From assembly GCF_008639165.1 (NCBI RefSeq), contig NZ_CP029197.1, positions 1,488,001 through 1,552,000 of the forward strand: 64,000 nt of DNA, in the 5' to 3' direction. A program made the position numbers and the translations under genes. The notes beneath the pieces are model-generated. The model saw only the letters and a program-made list of their open reading frames with translations. It did not search any database and was not told the DNA's origin. The DNA is from Streptomyces venezuelae ATCC 10712 (GTDB lineage: Bacteria > Actinomycetota > Actinomycetes > Streptomycetales > Streptomycetaceae). This document shows, piece after piece, positions 48,994 to 54,931 of the stretch (the first letter of the stretch is position 1; every line of letters starts with the position of its first letter).

Positions 48994-49093
48994 GACGGTT
49001 CCTCGGCAGGGGCTCGGGCGGCGGGGAGAGCGGCGCGGTCGCGGGGCGCCGGGTCGGGCGCACGGCGGCGCGGTCGCGGGGCGGGGCGCGGGG

Positions 49094-50899: not shown

Positions 50900-51744
50900 C
50901 GCCCACCGGCCGTTCCGCGGGCGTAGTGCCGCTCGACGTAGTACTGGCCGAGGCTGAGGACCGAGGTGACGGCGACGTACCAGAGGGTGGCGACGAGCAG
51001 CAGCGGGATGATCTCGTAGGTGCGGTGGTAGACGAGCTGGGTCGAGTAGAGCAGGTCCTGGACGGCGATCACGGAGACGATCGAGGTGCCCTTGAGGGTG
51101 CCGATGAGCATGTTCCCGGCCGGCGGGACGATGGCGCGCATGGCCTGCGGCAGCACGATCCGGGAGAGCCGGCGCCACCGGCCGAGGCCGAGCGACTGGG
51201 CCGCTTCGATCTGGCCGCGGTCGACGGAGAGGATGCCGCCGCGCACGACCTCGGCGGCGTAGGCCGCCTCGTGCAGGGTGAGGCCGATGACGGCGACGGA
51301 GACGGGGCCGAGGAGGTTGACCGTGTTCACGCCGAGGATCTGCGGGTAGAGCGCGCCGATGTTGAACCAGAACAGCAGCTGGACCAGGATCGGGGTGGAC
51401 CGGAAGAACCAGACGTATCCCCAGCTGACCGCGCGCAGCACGGGGTTGGCGGAGAGCCGGAGCACGGCGAGCAGGGTCCCGAGGGCGAAGCCGAGCGCCA
51501 TGACGAGGGCGGTCAGCCACAGGGTGAGGCCGAGGCCGCGCAGGACGGACGCGGAGGTGAAGTACTCGGCGACGACGTCCCATTGGAAGGCCTTGTTGCG
51601 GACGACCGAGACGAGGCCGAGCGCGAGCAGGACGAGGACGAGGCCGGCCGCGGTCCACTGCCCGGTGCGGCGGGCGGGGACGATGCGGGGCGGTGGGGCG
51701 GCCGGTGGGGCCGTGGAGGGGATCTTGACCAGGGTCGCGGACAT
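50896..51744 (-). CDS. Second amino-acid-type ABC transporter permease
   Basis: 282 residues, homologous to the other permease of the locus: LTLWLTALVMALGFALGTLLAVL, FRSTPILVQLLFWFNIGALYP and the coupling loop RGQIEAAQSLGLGRWRRLSRIVLPQAMRAIVPP. It is the first gene of the minus-strand operon, 100 nt downstream of a promoter with a consensus -35. It probably pairs with the first permease as a heterodimer, or forms a second importer with the divergently encoded binding protein. Confidence 0.93.
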   Translation of the reverse strand: MSATLVKIPSTAPPAAPPPRIVPARRTGQWTAAGLVLVLLALGLVSVVRNKAFQWDVVAEYFTSASVLRGLGLTLWLTALVMALGFALGTLLAVLRLSANPVLRAVSWGYVWFFRSTPILVQLLFWFNIGALYPQILGVNTVNLLGPVSVAVIGLTLHEAAYAAEVVRGGILSVDRGQIEAAQSLGLGRWRRLSRIVLPQAMRAIVPPAGNMLIGTLKGTSIVSVIAVQDLLYSTQLVYHRTYEIIPLLLVATLWYVAVTSVLSLGQYYVERHYARGTAGGR

Positions 51745-51843
51745 ACGAAGACTCCGTGGATGCCAGAGGCGGATCGAACACGGGGTGCGCCTTCACACGC
51801 GCTGAGCACGGTCCCGGGCCCCTCAGCCCGGTTCCGCCCTTCG

Positions 51844-51874
51844 AGGCTATGCGGTCAACACGGCCCGCTGTCAA
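51844..51874 (-). promoter_or_regulatory. Promoter of the minus-strand import operon
   Basis: On the minus strand TTGACA (51874-51869), a 19-nt spacer (18 nt if ATAGCC is used) and TAGCCT (51849-51844) form a promoter about 100 nt before the permease start. It is back to back with the leader-peptide promoter, so one regulator could control both sides. Confidence 0.5.
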
Positions 51875-51910
51875 GGCTGTCCGCACTGTGAGCCGTACGT
51901 CTCATCGTGG

Positions 51911-51939
51911 TTGACGCCGGAACGGATGCCTGTTCCACT
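51911..51939 (+). promoter_or_regulatory. Promoter of the leader peptide transcript
   Basis: TTGACG (51911-51916), a 17-nt spacer and a weak -10 TCCACT (51934-51939) that ends 6 nt before the leader ATG. The leader is thus probably translated from a leaderless mRNA. Confidence 0.45.
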
Positions 51940-51945
51940 GGGGCC

Positions 51946-52014
51946 ATGCATCCGCAGCAGCTGGTCACGCGCTCCCACATCGACTTCGGTCGCGTGTGGT
52001 CCTCTTCCTGTTGA
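51946..52014 (+). CDS. Cysteine-ending leader peptide
   Basis: 22 codons that contain LVTRSHIDF and end SSSC immediately before the stop. This closely follows the actinobacterial 'putative leader peptide' pattern (..L.TRR.HIDL.R..S..C) that sits before sulfur-assimilation and transport genes. In mycobacteria, peptides ending in Cys codons act by cysteine-dependent ribosome stalling. The following 176 nt contain competing hairpins. It probably senses charged tRNA-Cys and adjusts expression of the downstream GNAT and binding-protein genes. Confidence 0.85.
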   Translation: MHPQQLVTRSHIDFGRVWSSSC

Positions 52015-52088
52015 GCCGACCCGCTGTTCGCTGAGCCGGTCTCCGGCTCGCCCCGTCCGCGTGCTGTTCTCCGCGGCGCCTTCACACC

Positions 52089-52108
52089 CGGGCATCTCGT
52101 GATGCCCG
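52089..52108 (+). other. Leader hairpin (anti-stalling or terminator-like)
   Basis: CGGGCATC-TCGT-GATGCCCG, a perfect 8-bp stem with a 4-nt loop, 75 nt after the leader stop codon. It may be a pause or Rho-independent-like terminator element of the attenuator. Confidence 0.5.
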
Positions 52109-52138
52109 TGCTCTCCCCTCCCCTCGCTCCGTCACGCC

Positions 52139-52185
52139 GCCCTTCCGCGCTCTGAAGGGCTGCTGCCCTCCTTCGTCCTGAAGGA
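52139..52185 (+). promoter_or_regulatory. Mutually exclusive hairpins masking the GNAT ribosome binding site
   Basis: Segment A GCCCTTC (52139-52145) pairs perfectly with B GAAGGGC (52154-52160). B can instead pair with C (GCCC-TC-CTTC, 52165-52174). The end of C, TCCTTC (52169-52174), pairs perfectly with D GAAGGA (52180-52185), and D contains the ribosome binding site AAGGA of the gene starting at 52191. A:B with C:D hides the site; B:C frees it. This is the classic layout of a translational attenuator and fits control by the upstream leader peptide. Confidence 0.6.
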
Positions 52186-52190
52186 CCGTC

Positions 52191-52670
52191 ATGACCTTCG
52201 CGTTGTCCGTGCACCGGACCACGACCACCGACCCGCTGGCCCGCCCGCTCCTCGACGAGCTGGCGCACGAGTACACGACCCGGTACGGCTCCGCGCACGA
52301 TCTGAGCCGCTACCCGGCGGAGGAGTTCGCCCCGCCGCACGGCGCCTTCCTGCTCCTCCTGGAGCACGGCAGGCCGGTGGCGGGCGGTGCCTACCGCCGC
52401 TACGACGACGACACCGCCGAACTGAAGCGGATCTGGACCAGCTCGGCGCACCGCAGGCGCGGACTCGCCCGTCAGGTCCTGACCGTGCTCGAACGGGAGG
52501 CCGCCGCCCGCGGCTACTCCCGCCTCTACCTCACGACCGGACCGCGCCAGCCGGAGGCCAGGGGCCTCTATCTGGCGAGCGGCTACCGCCCGCTCTTCGA
52601 CGTGTCCGCCGATCCCGAGTCGATCGGCCCGCTGCCGTTCGAGAAACTCCTGGAGAACCCGAAGCCATGA
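52191..52670 (+). CDS. GNAT acetyltransferase of the leader-controlled operon
   Basis: 159 residues with a single GNAT domain: RIWTSSAHRRRGLARQVLTVLEREAAARGYSRLYLTTGPRQPEARGLYLASGYRPL. The acetyl-CoA loop is RRRGLA. The ribosome binding site AAGGA is 5 nt before the ATG and is part of a hairpin. The stop overlaps the next start by ATGA. It could acetylate an amine-containing sulfur compound such as a cysteine derivative before or after import; this is inference. Confidence 0.88.
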   Translation: MTFALSVHRTTTTDPLARPLLDELAHEYTTRYGSAHDLSRYPAEEFAPPHGAFLLLLEHGRPVAGGAYRRYDDDTAELKRIWTSSAHRRRGLARQVLTVLEREAAARGYSRLYLTTGPRQPEARGLYLASGYRPLFDVSADPESIGPLPFEKLLENPKP

Positions 52671-53632
52671 CCACGCGCACCCCACCCGGCACCGCACGCA
52701 CCGCCGTCGCCTTCGCCCTGATCACCGCCGCCGCGCTGGGTCTCACCGCCTGCGCCGGGGGCGATCCCGCGACCGCCCCGGCCGGCGCCGCCGCCGCGAA
52801 GGGCGGGCTCCCGACCGAGGACGTGGTGGCCGCGGTCACGCGGAACGAGGCGGCGGCGAAGCTGCTCCCCGCCGACGTGCGGCAGCGGGGCGGCCTGACG
52901 CTCGCCGCCTCCGTGGGGACCCCGCCCAGCTCGGCCTATCTGCCCGACGGCAAGACGGTCGTCGGGGTGGACGCCGACTTCTCGGCCGCCGTGGCGAAGG
53001 CCCTCGGCCTTGAGCTGAAGCGCGAGGTGGTGGGCTTCGAGGCGATCCTGCCGGCGCTCGGCAGCGGCAAGTACGACGTGGGCACCGGGAACTTCGGTGT
53101 GACCGAGGAGCGGCGCAAGACCATCGACTTCGTGACGTACGTCAACGACGGCCAGGGCTTCGCGAGCCGGGCCGACAGCCCGCTGAAGGCGGTCACCGAC
53201 CTCACCCAGCTGTGCGGCCTGAAGGTCGCGGTGAACGCGGGCACCACCTTCGAGCGGACCCTGGAGAAGAACAAGGGCCGGTGCGCGGCGGCCGGGAAGC
53301 AGCCGTACGAGGTGAACGTCTACAGCGAGACGGGGGCGATCTGGATGTCGCTCCGGCAGGGCCGCAGCGATGTCGTGATGAACACCATCAACGGCGTGCG
53401 GTACGCGGTGACGCAGCAGAAGGACGTGAAGTTCCTGAACGAGTACCGGCGGCTCGACGTCGGTTTCGCCTTCAAGAAGGGCACCCCGCTCGCGCCCGCC
53501 TTCCAGGCCGCGGTGAACGGACTGAAGGCGGACGGGACGTACGACAGGATCCTGCGGAAGTGGGGCGTGACGGCGTCCGGCATCGCCACCTCGCGGATCT
53601 CCCCGCCGGAGCTCCCGGCCCCGGAGAAGTAG
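52667..53632 (+). CDS. Second ABC solute-binding lipoprotein, amino-acid family
   Basis: 321 residues. The lipobox LTAC gives Cys29. The binding fold shows RQRGGLTLAASVGTPPSSAYL, VGVDADFSAAVAKALGLELKRE, YDVGTGNFGVTEERRKTIDFVTY and the C-terminal WGVTASGIATSRISPPELP, closely similar to the binding protein at 46.3 kb. No permease follows it, so it probably feeds the permeases and ATPase of the divergent operon. Confidence 0.92.
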   Translation: MTTRTPPGTARTAVAFALITAAALGLTACAGGDPATAPAGAAAAKGGLPTEDVVAAVTRNEAAAKLLPADVRQRGGLTLAASVGTPPSSAYLPDGKTVVGVDADFSAAVAKALGLELKREVVGFEAILPALGSGKYDVGTGNFGVTEERRKTIDFVTYVNDGQGFASRADSPLKAVTDLTQLCGLKVAVNAGTTFERTLEKNKGRCAAAGKQPYEVNVYSETGAIWMSLRQGRSDVVMNTINGVRYAVTQQKDVKFLNEYRRLDVGFAFKKGTPLAPAFQAAVNGLKADGTYDRILRKWGVTASGIATSRISPPELPAPEK

Positions 53633-53677: not shown

Positions 53678-54931
53678 TCAGCAGCCGTCGCAGGGGCAGC
53701 AGCAGTCGCAGTTGCCGCAGCCGGGGTCGCCGTCGCAGTCCCGGCAGCAGCCCTCGCGCTTCTTGCGGGACCAGGGGCCCTCGTACTCCTTGGCGCAGCA
53801 GATCTGGCAGGTGCAGAAGAGCCAGGTGAACATGGCGCACCCGGCGAGGAAGCCGCGCGGCTTGGGTGCCTGCGGGGCGCCGCCGCCGAACTGCGGCGGC
53901 AGCCCGCCGGGCCCGCCAGGACCGCCGCCGCCGTAAGGGTTCCCGCCGCCCCCGTACGGGTTCCCGCCGCCGTACGGGTTCCCGCCCTGGGGACCGTACG
54001 GGCCGGGCGCCCCGCCCGCGTACGGATTGCCCGGCACCGGCCCCTGGCCCGGGCCCGGCGCGCCGTGGGAGCAGCGGGTCGTGCCGAAGGCGCGGTCCAC
54101 CGAGGCGCGGAGCTCGTGGGCGAGCAGGACGTGCGCCAGCTTGTCGTCGGCGAACTCGGCGTCCCGCAGGGCCAGGCGGATGCCGTGCAGGGCGTCGTCG
54201 GCGAGCCGGCGGGCCTCCTCGCGTGAGGTGCCGGTCGCGGTGAGCGGGTTCCAGGCGCCGCTCTCCGCGTCGGCGTTCTGGTCCTCGACGGCGTCGAGGA
54301 GGTGGGCGAGCCGGCCGAAGAGCCGGCCCGCCTCGGCGAGCGGTTCGGCGTTCCCGGGGCGCCCGGCGAGGACGGCGGTGTGCGCGAAGGCGGCCGCGGT
54401 GGCCGTCTCGGTCGGTTCGGTGACGGCGAGCAGCGGGGTGCCGGGTCCGGCGAGGGACTCGATGCCGGTCTGGCGGTCGACGGCGTCGACGAGGACGGCG
54501 GTGTCGAAGCCGAGGGAGCGGCCGGTCCTGGCGCCTGCCCGGTCCCAGGAGCGGGCGACCCGGCGGGCCGCGGCGGCGACGGGCCGCCGGGCCAACAGGC
54601 CGTCCCGGTCGGCGACGTGGTCCCGTACCTTCGCGGAGGCGAGGACGAGCGAGACGGCGGCGGCGAGCCTGGCCCCTTCGCCCTTGGCCACGGGGGCGGT
54701 GCGCATGGCGCGCAGCGCGCACGGTCCGGCGGTGCGTCGGTCCGCGGCCGTGACCCCGGTCTGAGCCTCCGTCAGGACCGAGACGATGAGGCCGTCGTAG
54801 TTGGTGACGACCCGGGCGAACTGTCCGTGGTCGGCGCGAAGTGCCAGGCAGAGGCCGCAGAGATGGGCCATCCACTCGACTTTGAGGCCGTCGGTGAGCC
54901 GATGGGTGCAGGGTCTGACGATTCCGAACAT
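53678..54931 (-). CDS. DUF5685 family protein with NPYGGG repeats and Cys-rich tail
   Basis: 417 residues. The first 270 residues are helical and match DUF5685 (MFGIVRPCTHRL... HLCGLCLALRADHGQFARVVTNYDGL, with early Cys pairs). A Gly/Pro/Tyr-rich linker with NPYGGG-type repeats (about 290-345) follows. The last 55 residues carry a large cluster of Cys (CTCQICC, CCRDCDGDPGCGNCDCCCPCDGC) that looks metal-binding. The ATG at 54931 has GGGGGAG upstream. It lies next to sepF on the opposite strand. Function unknown. Confidence 0.8.
   Translation of the reverse strand: MFGIVRPCTHRLTDGLKVEWMAHLCGLCLALRADHGQFARVVTNYDGLIVSVLTEAQTGVTAADRRTAGPCALRAMRTAPVAKGEGARLAAAVSLVLASAKVRDHVADRDGLLARRPVAAAARRVARSWDRAGARTGRSLGFDTAVLVDAVDRQTGIESLAGPGTPLLAVTEPTETATAAAFAHTAVLAGRPGNAEPLAEAGRLFGRLAHLLDAVEDQNADAESGAWNPLTATGTSREEARRLADDALHGIRLALRDAEFADDKLAHVLLAHELRASVDRAFGTTRCSHGAPGPGQGPVPGNPYAGGAPGPYGPQGGNPYGGGNPYGGGGNPYGGGGPGGPGGLPPQFGGGAPQAPKPRGFLAGCAMFTWLFCTCQICCAKEYEGPWSRKKREGCCRDCDGDPGCGNCDCCCPCDGC

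Follow-up and report, generated by a model that had tools for sequence, protein, structure and literature searches.

A cysteine-ending leader peptide ahead of an acetyltransferase gene of Streptomyces venezuelae: a candidate attenuator with a single UGU sensor codon

In 2020 Canestrari et al. reportedly described mycobacterial polycysteine ORFs, short and leaderless, which lie ahead of cysteine and sulfur genes. Such ORFs are touched on in the accessible parts of PMC9031893, PMC9094748 and PMC13236596, and according to the last of these the cysteine genes of M. smegmatis are regulated by translation attenuation. For leaders of cys operons in Mycobacterium and Propionibacterium, Rho-dependent termination has been suggested, a suggestion called weak by its own authors (Seliverstov et al. 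2005, PMC1262725); as far as the available text of these two papers goes, both kinds of output therefore have a precedent. In Rhodobacterales, uORFC-8-2 before cysS contains leader cysteine codons and was proposed to be a ribosome-mediated attenuator (PMC8632094, available part). In addition, a reannotation of S. lividans contains eight leader peptides, none of which is assigned to cysteine in the portion of that paper at hand (PMC8079986).

The leader considered here is a 22-codon ORF (MHPQQLVTRSHIDFGRVWSSSC-stop) on the forward strand at positions 51946-52014 of the window, i.e. of the whole stretch of 64,000 nucleotides that was analysed, which comes from the 8.2 Mb, single-contig genome of Streptomyces venezuelae ATCC 10712. 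The ATG lies at 51946 and the TGA stop codon at 52012-52014; the first gene after the leader encodes a GNAT acetyltransferase (52191-52670, forward strand; Pfam PF00583, E 1.5e-16). As in the mycobacterial polycysteine ORFs, insofar as the accessible text describes them, the leader stands at the (predicted) transcript start, has a cysteine near its end and is followed by genes of the cysteine/sulfur kind, but it contains one cysteine in 22 codons and no run, carries a hairpin in the codons for HIDFGRVW, and differs in its downstream genes and linker. With the cys leaders of PMC1262725 it shares the cysteine near the stop and the lack of a terminator hairpin (for the window, by consensus scan); those leaders, however, have runs of cysteine codons, and cys leaders of Streptomyces are not named in the available part of that paper. 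Similarly, the leader cysteine codons and the proposed ribosome-mediated attenuation recall uORFC-8-2, which in contrast, going by the accessible text of PMC8632094, contains tandem cysteines encoded mostly by UGC, where the window family has UGU, and also an intrinsic terminator.

Two NCBIfam models describe leaders of this kind. Against NF042936, named after the mycobacterial polycysteine leader Ms4527A, the leader at 51946-52014 gives 22.2 bits (E 7.9e-5), the cut-off being 45, and although its layout is like the LV.R.HVD..RV.SA.C of NF042934 (cis_reg_atten, 'putative leader peptide'; cut-off 27 bits), there is no match to that model at E <= 1. The window subtype passes neither cut-off, and the window thereby adds a leader subtype that is beyond the reach of both models at their cut-offs.

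Orthologous loci were defined as the best 68 matches to the acetyltransferase, down to E 2.3e-35 and including the window locus, from a search of 295 genomes of the genus, 222 of which contain matches at 1e-20. The leader core together with a start codon was found in 59 of the 68 loci, which bears out the initial annotation in its description of a 22-codon, cysteine-ending leader that fits a known pattern. One locus (L026) has the core only, its start lying outside the sequence examined, and no core was found in L027, L031, L036, L041, L059, L062, L063 and L068, where some of the stretches are short upstream (105 nt in L059). The core pattern required T/S-R, an aliphatic residue, Asp, an Arg and Cys, so that these are partly conserved by construction, and it left F, G, V, W, S and every codon unconstrained. 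The conserved peptide of the orthologs reads LVTR.HIDFGRVWS..C; Leu and both Arg are invariant (59/59) and the codons for them are variable. The comparison clearly argues for a leader that is more than a product of chance.

The window leader is one of many cysteine leaders, a wide set whose members often stand ahead of sulfite or PAPS reductase genes. Within the class of the source organism, NF042936 has matches at E <= 0.01 in 87 of 148 genomes, which represent 46 of 81 genera; single genomes have up to 7 places, and only five of the 148 exceed the curated cut-off. None of 14 control genomes has a match at this level, and at a loose E <= 10 nine of the 14 have one. NF042934 at 0.001 matches 89 of 118 genomes, 78 over the cut-off, and 0/14 controls; the source genome has nine places. 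Leaders were read at 30 loci plus 40 taken by position among the NF042936 matches listed, and at 30 among the NF042934 matches. Seven further leaders of the source genome were read (L071, L072 and L074-L078), four of which pass the NF042934 cut-off. The leaders obtained at the loose cut-off (L077-L081) need other grounds: L077 is confirmed by NF042934, L078 reaches 25.8 bits with this model and stays under the cut-off of 27, and L079-L081 were not used.

The next genes of the family leaders were picked by codon score, giving 59 genes from 65 leaders, six leaders being without a confident gene, and some of the frames may be wrong. Among the 59 proteins are 27 with a nitrite/sulfite reductase half domain and five PAPS reductases; there are also two sulfatases, one PALP enzyme, one Cys/Met PLP enzyme and one cysteine dioxygenase. 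Dicarboxylate symporters, dioxygenase N-domains, regulator domains and family-5 binding proteins occur three times each, and there is a single DUF1684 besides others and unknowns.

The strongest result is a rule for the codon of one cysteine, which was absent from the initial annotation; the kind of leader itself was already known. In 69 of 73 distinct family leaders a cysteine lies exactly 11 residues past the His of HxDxxR (H+11), the parse having required a Cys somewhere in the tail and not specifically at this place. The codon there is UGU in 67 of the 69 and UGC in two (L097, L115), and the base that follows is a pyrimidine in 65 (C 53, T 12, A 4, G 0). For the other cysteines of the same peptides, the counts are UGC 35 and UGU 15. 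Fisher's test of H+11 against other cysteines in the first 65 leaders gives 8.8e-16 with relatedness ignored; as the family leaders are related, tests that assume independence overstate the significance. In 39 downstream genes, hand-picked out of the 59 next genes, cysteine is encoded by UGC 110 times and by UGU five times, and the base after these codons is G 53, A 30, C 24 and T 8 times; the twelve window genes used for codon usage have UGC in 97% of 32 cysteine codons.

A second set, drawn from the NF042934 matches, follows the same rule: in all 22 new leaders the codon at +11 is UGU, followed by C in 16 and by T in six, L165 with UGU being left out of this count, and their other cysteines are UGC 45 times and UGU 13 times. 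Ala replaces His in 19 of the 22, and Cys is at +11 in all 19. L153-L182 appear as a second subfamily of the form LTKRRAVDLCRV.CLC, in which Ala stands for His and both the spacing and UGU are unchanged. The window leader itself has HxDxxR with Cys at H+11, UGU and a following pyrimidine: the presumed sensor codon lies at 52009-52011 on the forward strand, 11 residues past the His of HID, and the next base is the U of the stop codon. Its orthologs have UGU in 59/59, followed by T in 50, C in eight and A in one, these being close relatives and not independent.

The 73 leaders were obtained after dropping L093, L148, L149 and L150 as identical, and L144 gave no leader. They include the off-centre leaders L089, L097, L103, L111 and L118, of which L097 counts against the rule and L118 repeats L125. 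Cysteine is missing from H+11 in L070, L094, L106 and L132. L070, L106 and L132, all of the LTSRRHIDL type, instead have a cysteine at H+7, encoded by UGC, and perhaps use a different sensor or are decayed copies.

If true, the UGU-pyrimidine rule would pinpoint the cysteine-sensing codon in many leaders of the class, those with long runs included, and would offer a one-base test (UGU to UGC) of how codon choice, and not the amino acid, determines an attenuator's sensitivity. To our knowledge, only one kind of tRNA-Cys is presumed to exist, and with a single kind, wobble and context would stand in for a choice among isoacceptors. According to the available part of PMC1183508, theory holds that sensitive attenuation needs a particular choice of synonymous codons, among isoacceptors. 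The rule was not met in the open literature searched, and it may stand in Canestrari 2020 or in other work outside that literature.

Upstream of the leader, a -35 element, TTGACG, is located at 51911-51916 on the forward strand. Its conserved TTGAC is present upstream of the leader in 59/59 orthologs, in 58 of them at a distance of 50-55 nt from the conserved core. It is followed after 17 nt by a -10-like element, TCCACT (51934-51939, forward strand), recognised from the sequence and from conserved columns, which is TCAATT-like in other relatives. As TTGAC keeps a near-fixed distance and TCCACT ends 6 nt before the ATG, the transcript likely begins at the AUG, and the leader mRNA is then probably leaderless. 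A scan for E. coli-consensus promoters around the leader returned none, so that the promoter is proposed from conservation.

Between the leader and the acetyltransferase gene lies an untranslated linker (52015-52190, forward strand) that is rich in C and poor in G (45% C, 26% G), the richest 78 nt being 52069-52146. C-minus-G is above 0.1 in 57 of the 59 orthologous loci (median 0.20); over the 60 nt that directly follow each of 65 family leaders, it has a median of 0.17. Of all 176-nt segments of the 64 kb, both strands taken together, 4.4% reach the value of the window linker. Among the upstream regions of 29 codon-score ORFs in the window the median is 0.017, and four regions, that of the acetyltransferase included, are at 0.19 or more. 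The 100 nt upstream of the second permease gene (48994-49093, minus strand) have a C-minus-G of 0.30, the top value of the 29 regions. A consensus scan of 51700-52300 in the window found no intrinsic terminator, in which the leader is unlike a classical transcription attenuator, and a match to the Rho N-domain is encoded in the genome. The C-rich linker fits Rho-dependent termination, with the qualification that 4/29 upstream regions of the window are equally C-rich, and termination by Rho in this linker appears to be the likeliest output.

The codons for HIDFGRVW can form a hairpin, CCACAUCGAC-UUCG-GUCG(N)GUGUGG, at 51975-51999 on the forward strand. It has -7 kcal/mol or less in 59/59 orthologs, and of 5000 synonymous recodings made with the codon usage of the twelve window genes, only 1.6% reach the stability of the window hairpin. 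The hairpin codons of the orthologs are GGT for Gly in 56/56 (usage 7%) and GTG for Val in 58/59 (usage 30%); if only the shorter 24-base stretch is folded, the hairpin of L038, in which GTA replaces GTG, is less stable. The hairpin looked like the reason for the conserved peptide; in seven other leaders of the source genome, however, 7-89% of synonymous recodings are equally stable (lowest in L072, 6.9%), so that it is a feature of the window subtype. CTTCAC (window 52080-52086) occurs within 260 nt past the stop in 21 of 22 SSSC-type leaders and could pair with the GUGUGG of the leader hairpin.

Taken together, we consider it likely, with a probability of about two in three, that the locus is a ribosome-mediated, cysteine-responsive attenuator with a single slow sensor codon. 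A ribosome would load on the leader at once at the start of the transcript. When Cys-tRNA is short, it would wait at the single UGU, which may be slow through G-U wobble and the pyrimidine context, and the waiting ribosome would keep the downstream genes on. With cysteine plentiful, the ribosome would finish and leave, and the operon would be turned down. The least certain steps are those of the off state, which might consist of Rho-dependent termination in the freed C-rich linker, perhaps helped in the window lineage by masking of the Shine-Dalgarno sequence (SD) through the hairpin C:D described below.

A different switch had been suggested in the initial annotation, in which a ribosome on the leader chooses between two pairings of four segments, A:B with C:D or B:C, and thereby frees the SD at 52180. 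All pairings exist, and A:B and C:D form as drawn. The A:B hairpin (52139-52160, forward strand; A 52139-52145 with B 52154-52160) has 7 bp and -12.1 kcal/mol, and C:D (52169-52185, forward strand; TCCTTC 52169-52174 with GAAGGA 52180-52185) has 6 bp and -7.1 kcal/mol; both together reach -19.2 kcal/mol (MFE -22.4) with pair probabilities of 0.89-1.0 in the folded leader (0.89-0.97 for the A:B and C:D pairings), and D (GAAGGA) is indeed the SD for the acetyltransferase, whose gene begins at 52191. For B:C by itself, however, the most favourable pairing (52156-52160 with 52165-52169) gives -8.8 kcal/mol, so that this alternative has a deficit of 10-13 kcal/mol as long as A is not removed. A stalled ribosome covers about 15 nt downstream. 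As the distance from the stop to the start of A (52139) is 125 nt, stalling at 52009 should leave A out of the ribosome's reach.

In an alignment of 14 window-type leaders, C:D is paired in 88.9% of cells and the inner five pairs of A:B in 87.5% of those where letters are present, 5-8 of the 14 sequences being gapped there; the outer two pairs of A:B form in one of the four sequences that have letters at these places, and B is lacking by eye in several close relatives (L007, L008, L069, L009, L010 and L011-L014). Covariation of the four segments, the check proposed for them, does not exceed that of shuffles: 126 of 500 match the whole A-D set, which contains one two-sided change. With B missing in these relatives, B:C weak and covariation no better than in shuffles, A-D was rejected as a conserved switch; the idea that the segments constitute a fully developed, leader-coupled anti-SD attenuator is not supported, and the choice among them would not decide the translation of the next gene. 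We therefore regard this reading as very improbable. The unit CTCCTTCG.CCTGAAGG is present twice in L006 and, in variant form, also in L065, and from this doubling of the C:D unit the lineage-limited A:B is likely a tandem copy of C:D.

If the choice among A-D is set aside, C:D alone might still mask the SD and be opened by a longer-range rearrangement when the ribosome stalls, as in Mycobacterium smegmatis, a precedent taken from the accessible part of PMC13236596. The opening energy of the SD in the window lies in the top 3% of shuffles, and it is at or under the 5% level in five of 15 loci, the window included, against 0.11-0.74 in the other ten. Among the SSSC-type leaders (21 examined, 20 tested, L015 giving no SD), a complement of the SD core is found within 50 nt upstream in 16/20 with 8.5 expected, the nominal value of 5e-5 assuming an independence which these relatives do not have; L009, L010, L012 and L069 are without it, and leaders of the MPVEFLG type have it in 4/33 with 2.4 expected. 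The consensus fold of the 14 window-type leaders contains two-sided changes in 3/33 pairs, one of them long-range, with a covariation term of +0.42; the term is about zero in the monooxygenase group and slight in subsets of the window group. That C:D exceeds chance has moderate support, and its masking of the SD may be a feature of one lineage; translational attenuation as the way in which the leader acts seems rather unlikely to us.

The relatives in which a monooxygenase gene comes next (L028-L066) have a strongly conserved block, CTCGGCAGCGGGCCG...CGGCCCTTCCCTCCCTCGGTGACCCCGTCGCGGGCCGAG, with competing helices in the first 66 nt past the stop. Its segments (CTCGGC..GGGCCG..CGGCCC..CTCGG..GCCGAG) form alternative helices with 95-98% of cells paired over 24 loci; 24 of 25 sequences were aligned, the exception being L048, in which the block is missing, and the divergent L046, L061, L044 and L047 had already been set aside. 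As the block is mostly invariant and without covariation, it speaks neither for nor against a switch there. The block was not seen in the window. In L028-L066 a part of it would be accessible to a ribosome that stalls on the leader.

It is also conceivable, though we hold it for less likely than not, that the nascent chain itself acts, (H/A)xDxxR in the exit tunnel pausing the ribosome at UGU in the manner of an arrest peptide, with cysteine or Cys-tRNA as a possible ligand. A codon-only attenuator would need no such peptide, and the fixed distance to the cysteine, kept in the Ala-type leaders as well, agrees with this reading. In the family peptide His is kept in 64/65 and Arg in 65/65 leaders while their codons vary, suggesting selection on the peptide, with the caveat that a peptide model served to find the loci and that the parse of the 65 leaders required Asp, allowing H, Q, Y, R at the His position and R, K, C, L at the Arg position. 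Shared ancestry, however, could also preserve the peptide, and the RNA hairpin may explain part of it in the window subtype. An action of the nascent chain would add to the single-codon attenuator and would not exclude it. A combination of the two may tentatively be put forward, in which (H/A)xDxxR positions the ribosome so that the slow, wobble-read UGU-pyrimidine 11 residues later would respond with extreme sensitivity to Cys-tRNA; all other cysteines, runs included, would be passengers, and outputs would vary by operon and lineage. That the small peptide acts in trans, or that the ORF is a chance frame, is hardly credible: the peptide is conserved, as an action in trans would predict, but the promoter stands at a near-fixed distance in 58/59, there is constraint at the level of the codon at the cysteine, and the same gene group follows all 59 orthologous leaders.

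The distance between leader and acetyltransferase falls into two classes. It is less than 500 nt in 27 of the 59 orthologs and more than 1.2 kb in 32, and in 32/32 of the latter a monooxygenase-type start comes first; in both of two loci tested, the first gene after the leader is a luciferase-like monooxygenase. L019, L020, L022 and L023 have an acetyltransferase N-terminus with what appear to be the first codons of the monooxygenase gene. Such codons would be the relic of a deletion, which suggests that the monooxygenase was lost in the window lineage and that the acetyltransferase probably took over its initiation region.

Downstream of the acetyltransferase gene, and on the same strand, a family-3 solute-binding protein of an amino-acid ABC transporter is encoded at 52667-53632 (PF00497, E 3.3e-25), which matches the NCBIfam models for Lys/Arg/Orn, Gln and cystine binding proteins, all below cut-off. 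The opposite strand encodes two amino-acid ABC permeases, an ATPase, a second binding protein, a FAD-NAD(P)-binding protein and a luciferase-like monooxygenase; their NCBIfam relatives include cystine transport proteins as well as monooxygenases (NtaA/DmoA or SfnG), most of the matches staying under the curated cut-offs. From this gene content, the neighbourhood would be a sulfur-scavenging cluster. As the first gene encodes an acetyltransferase, the link of the window operon to sulfur rests on the transporter and on the relatives. No Rfam family reaches its gathering score in the 64-kb window. A predicted protein encoded on the minus strand at 53678-54931 has a C-terminal tail that is strongly cysteine-rich.
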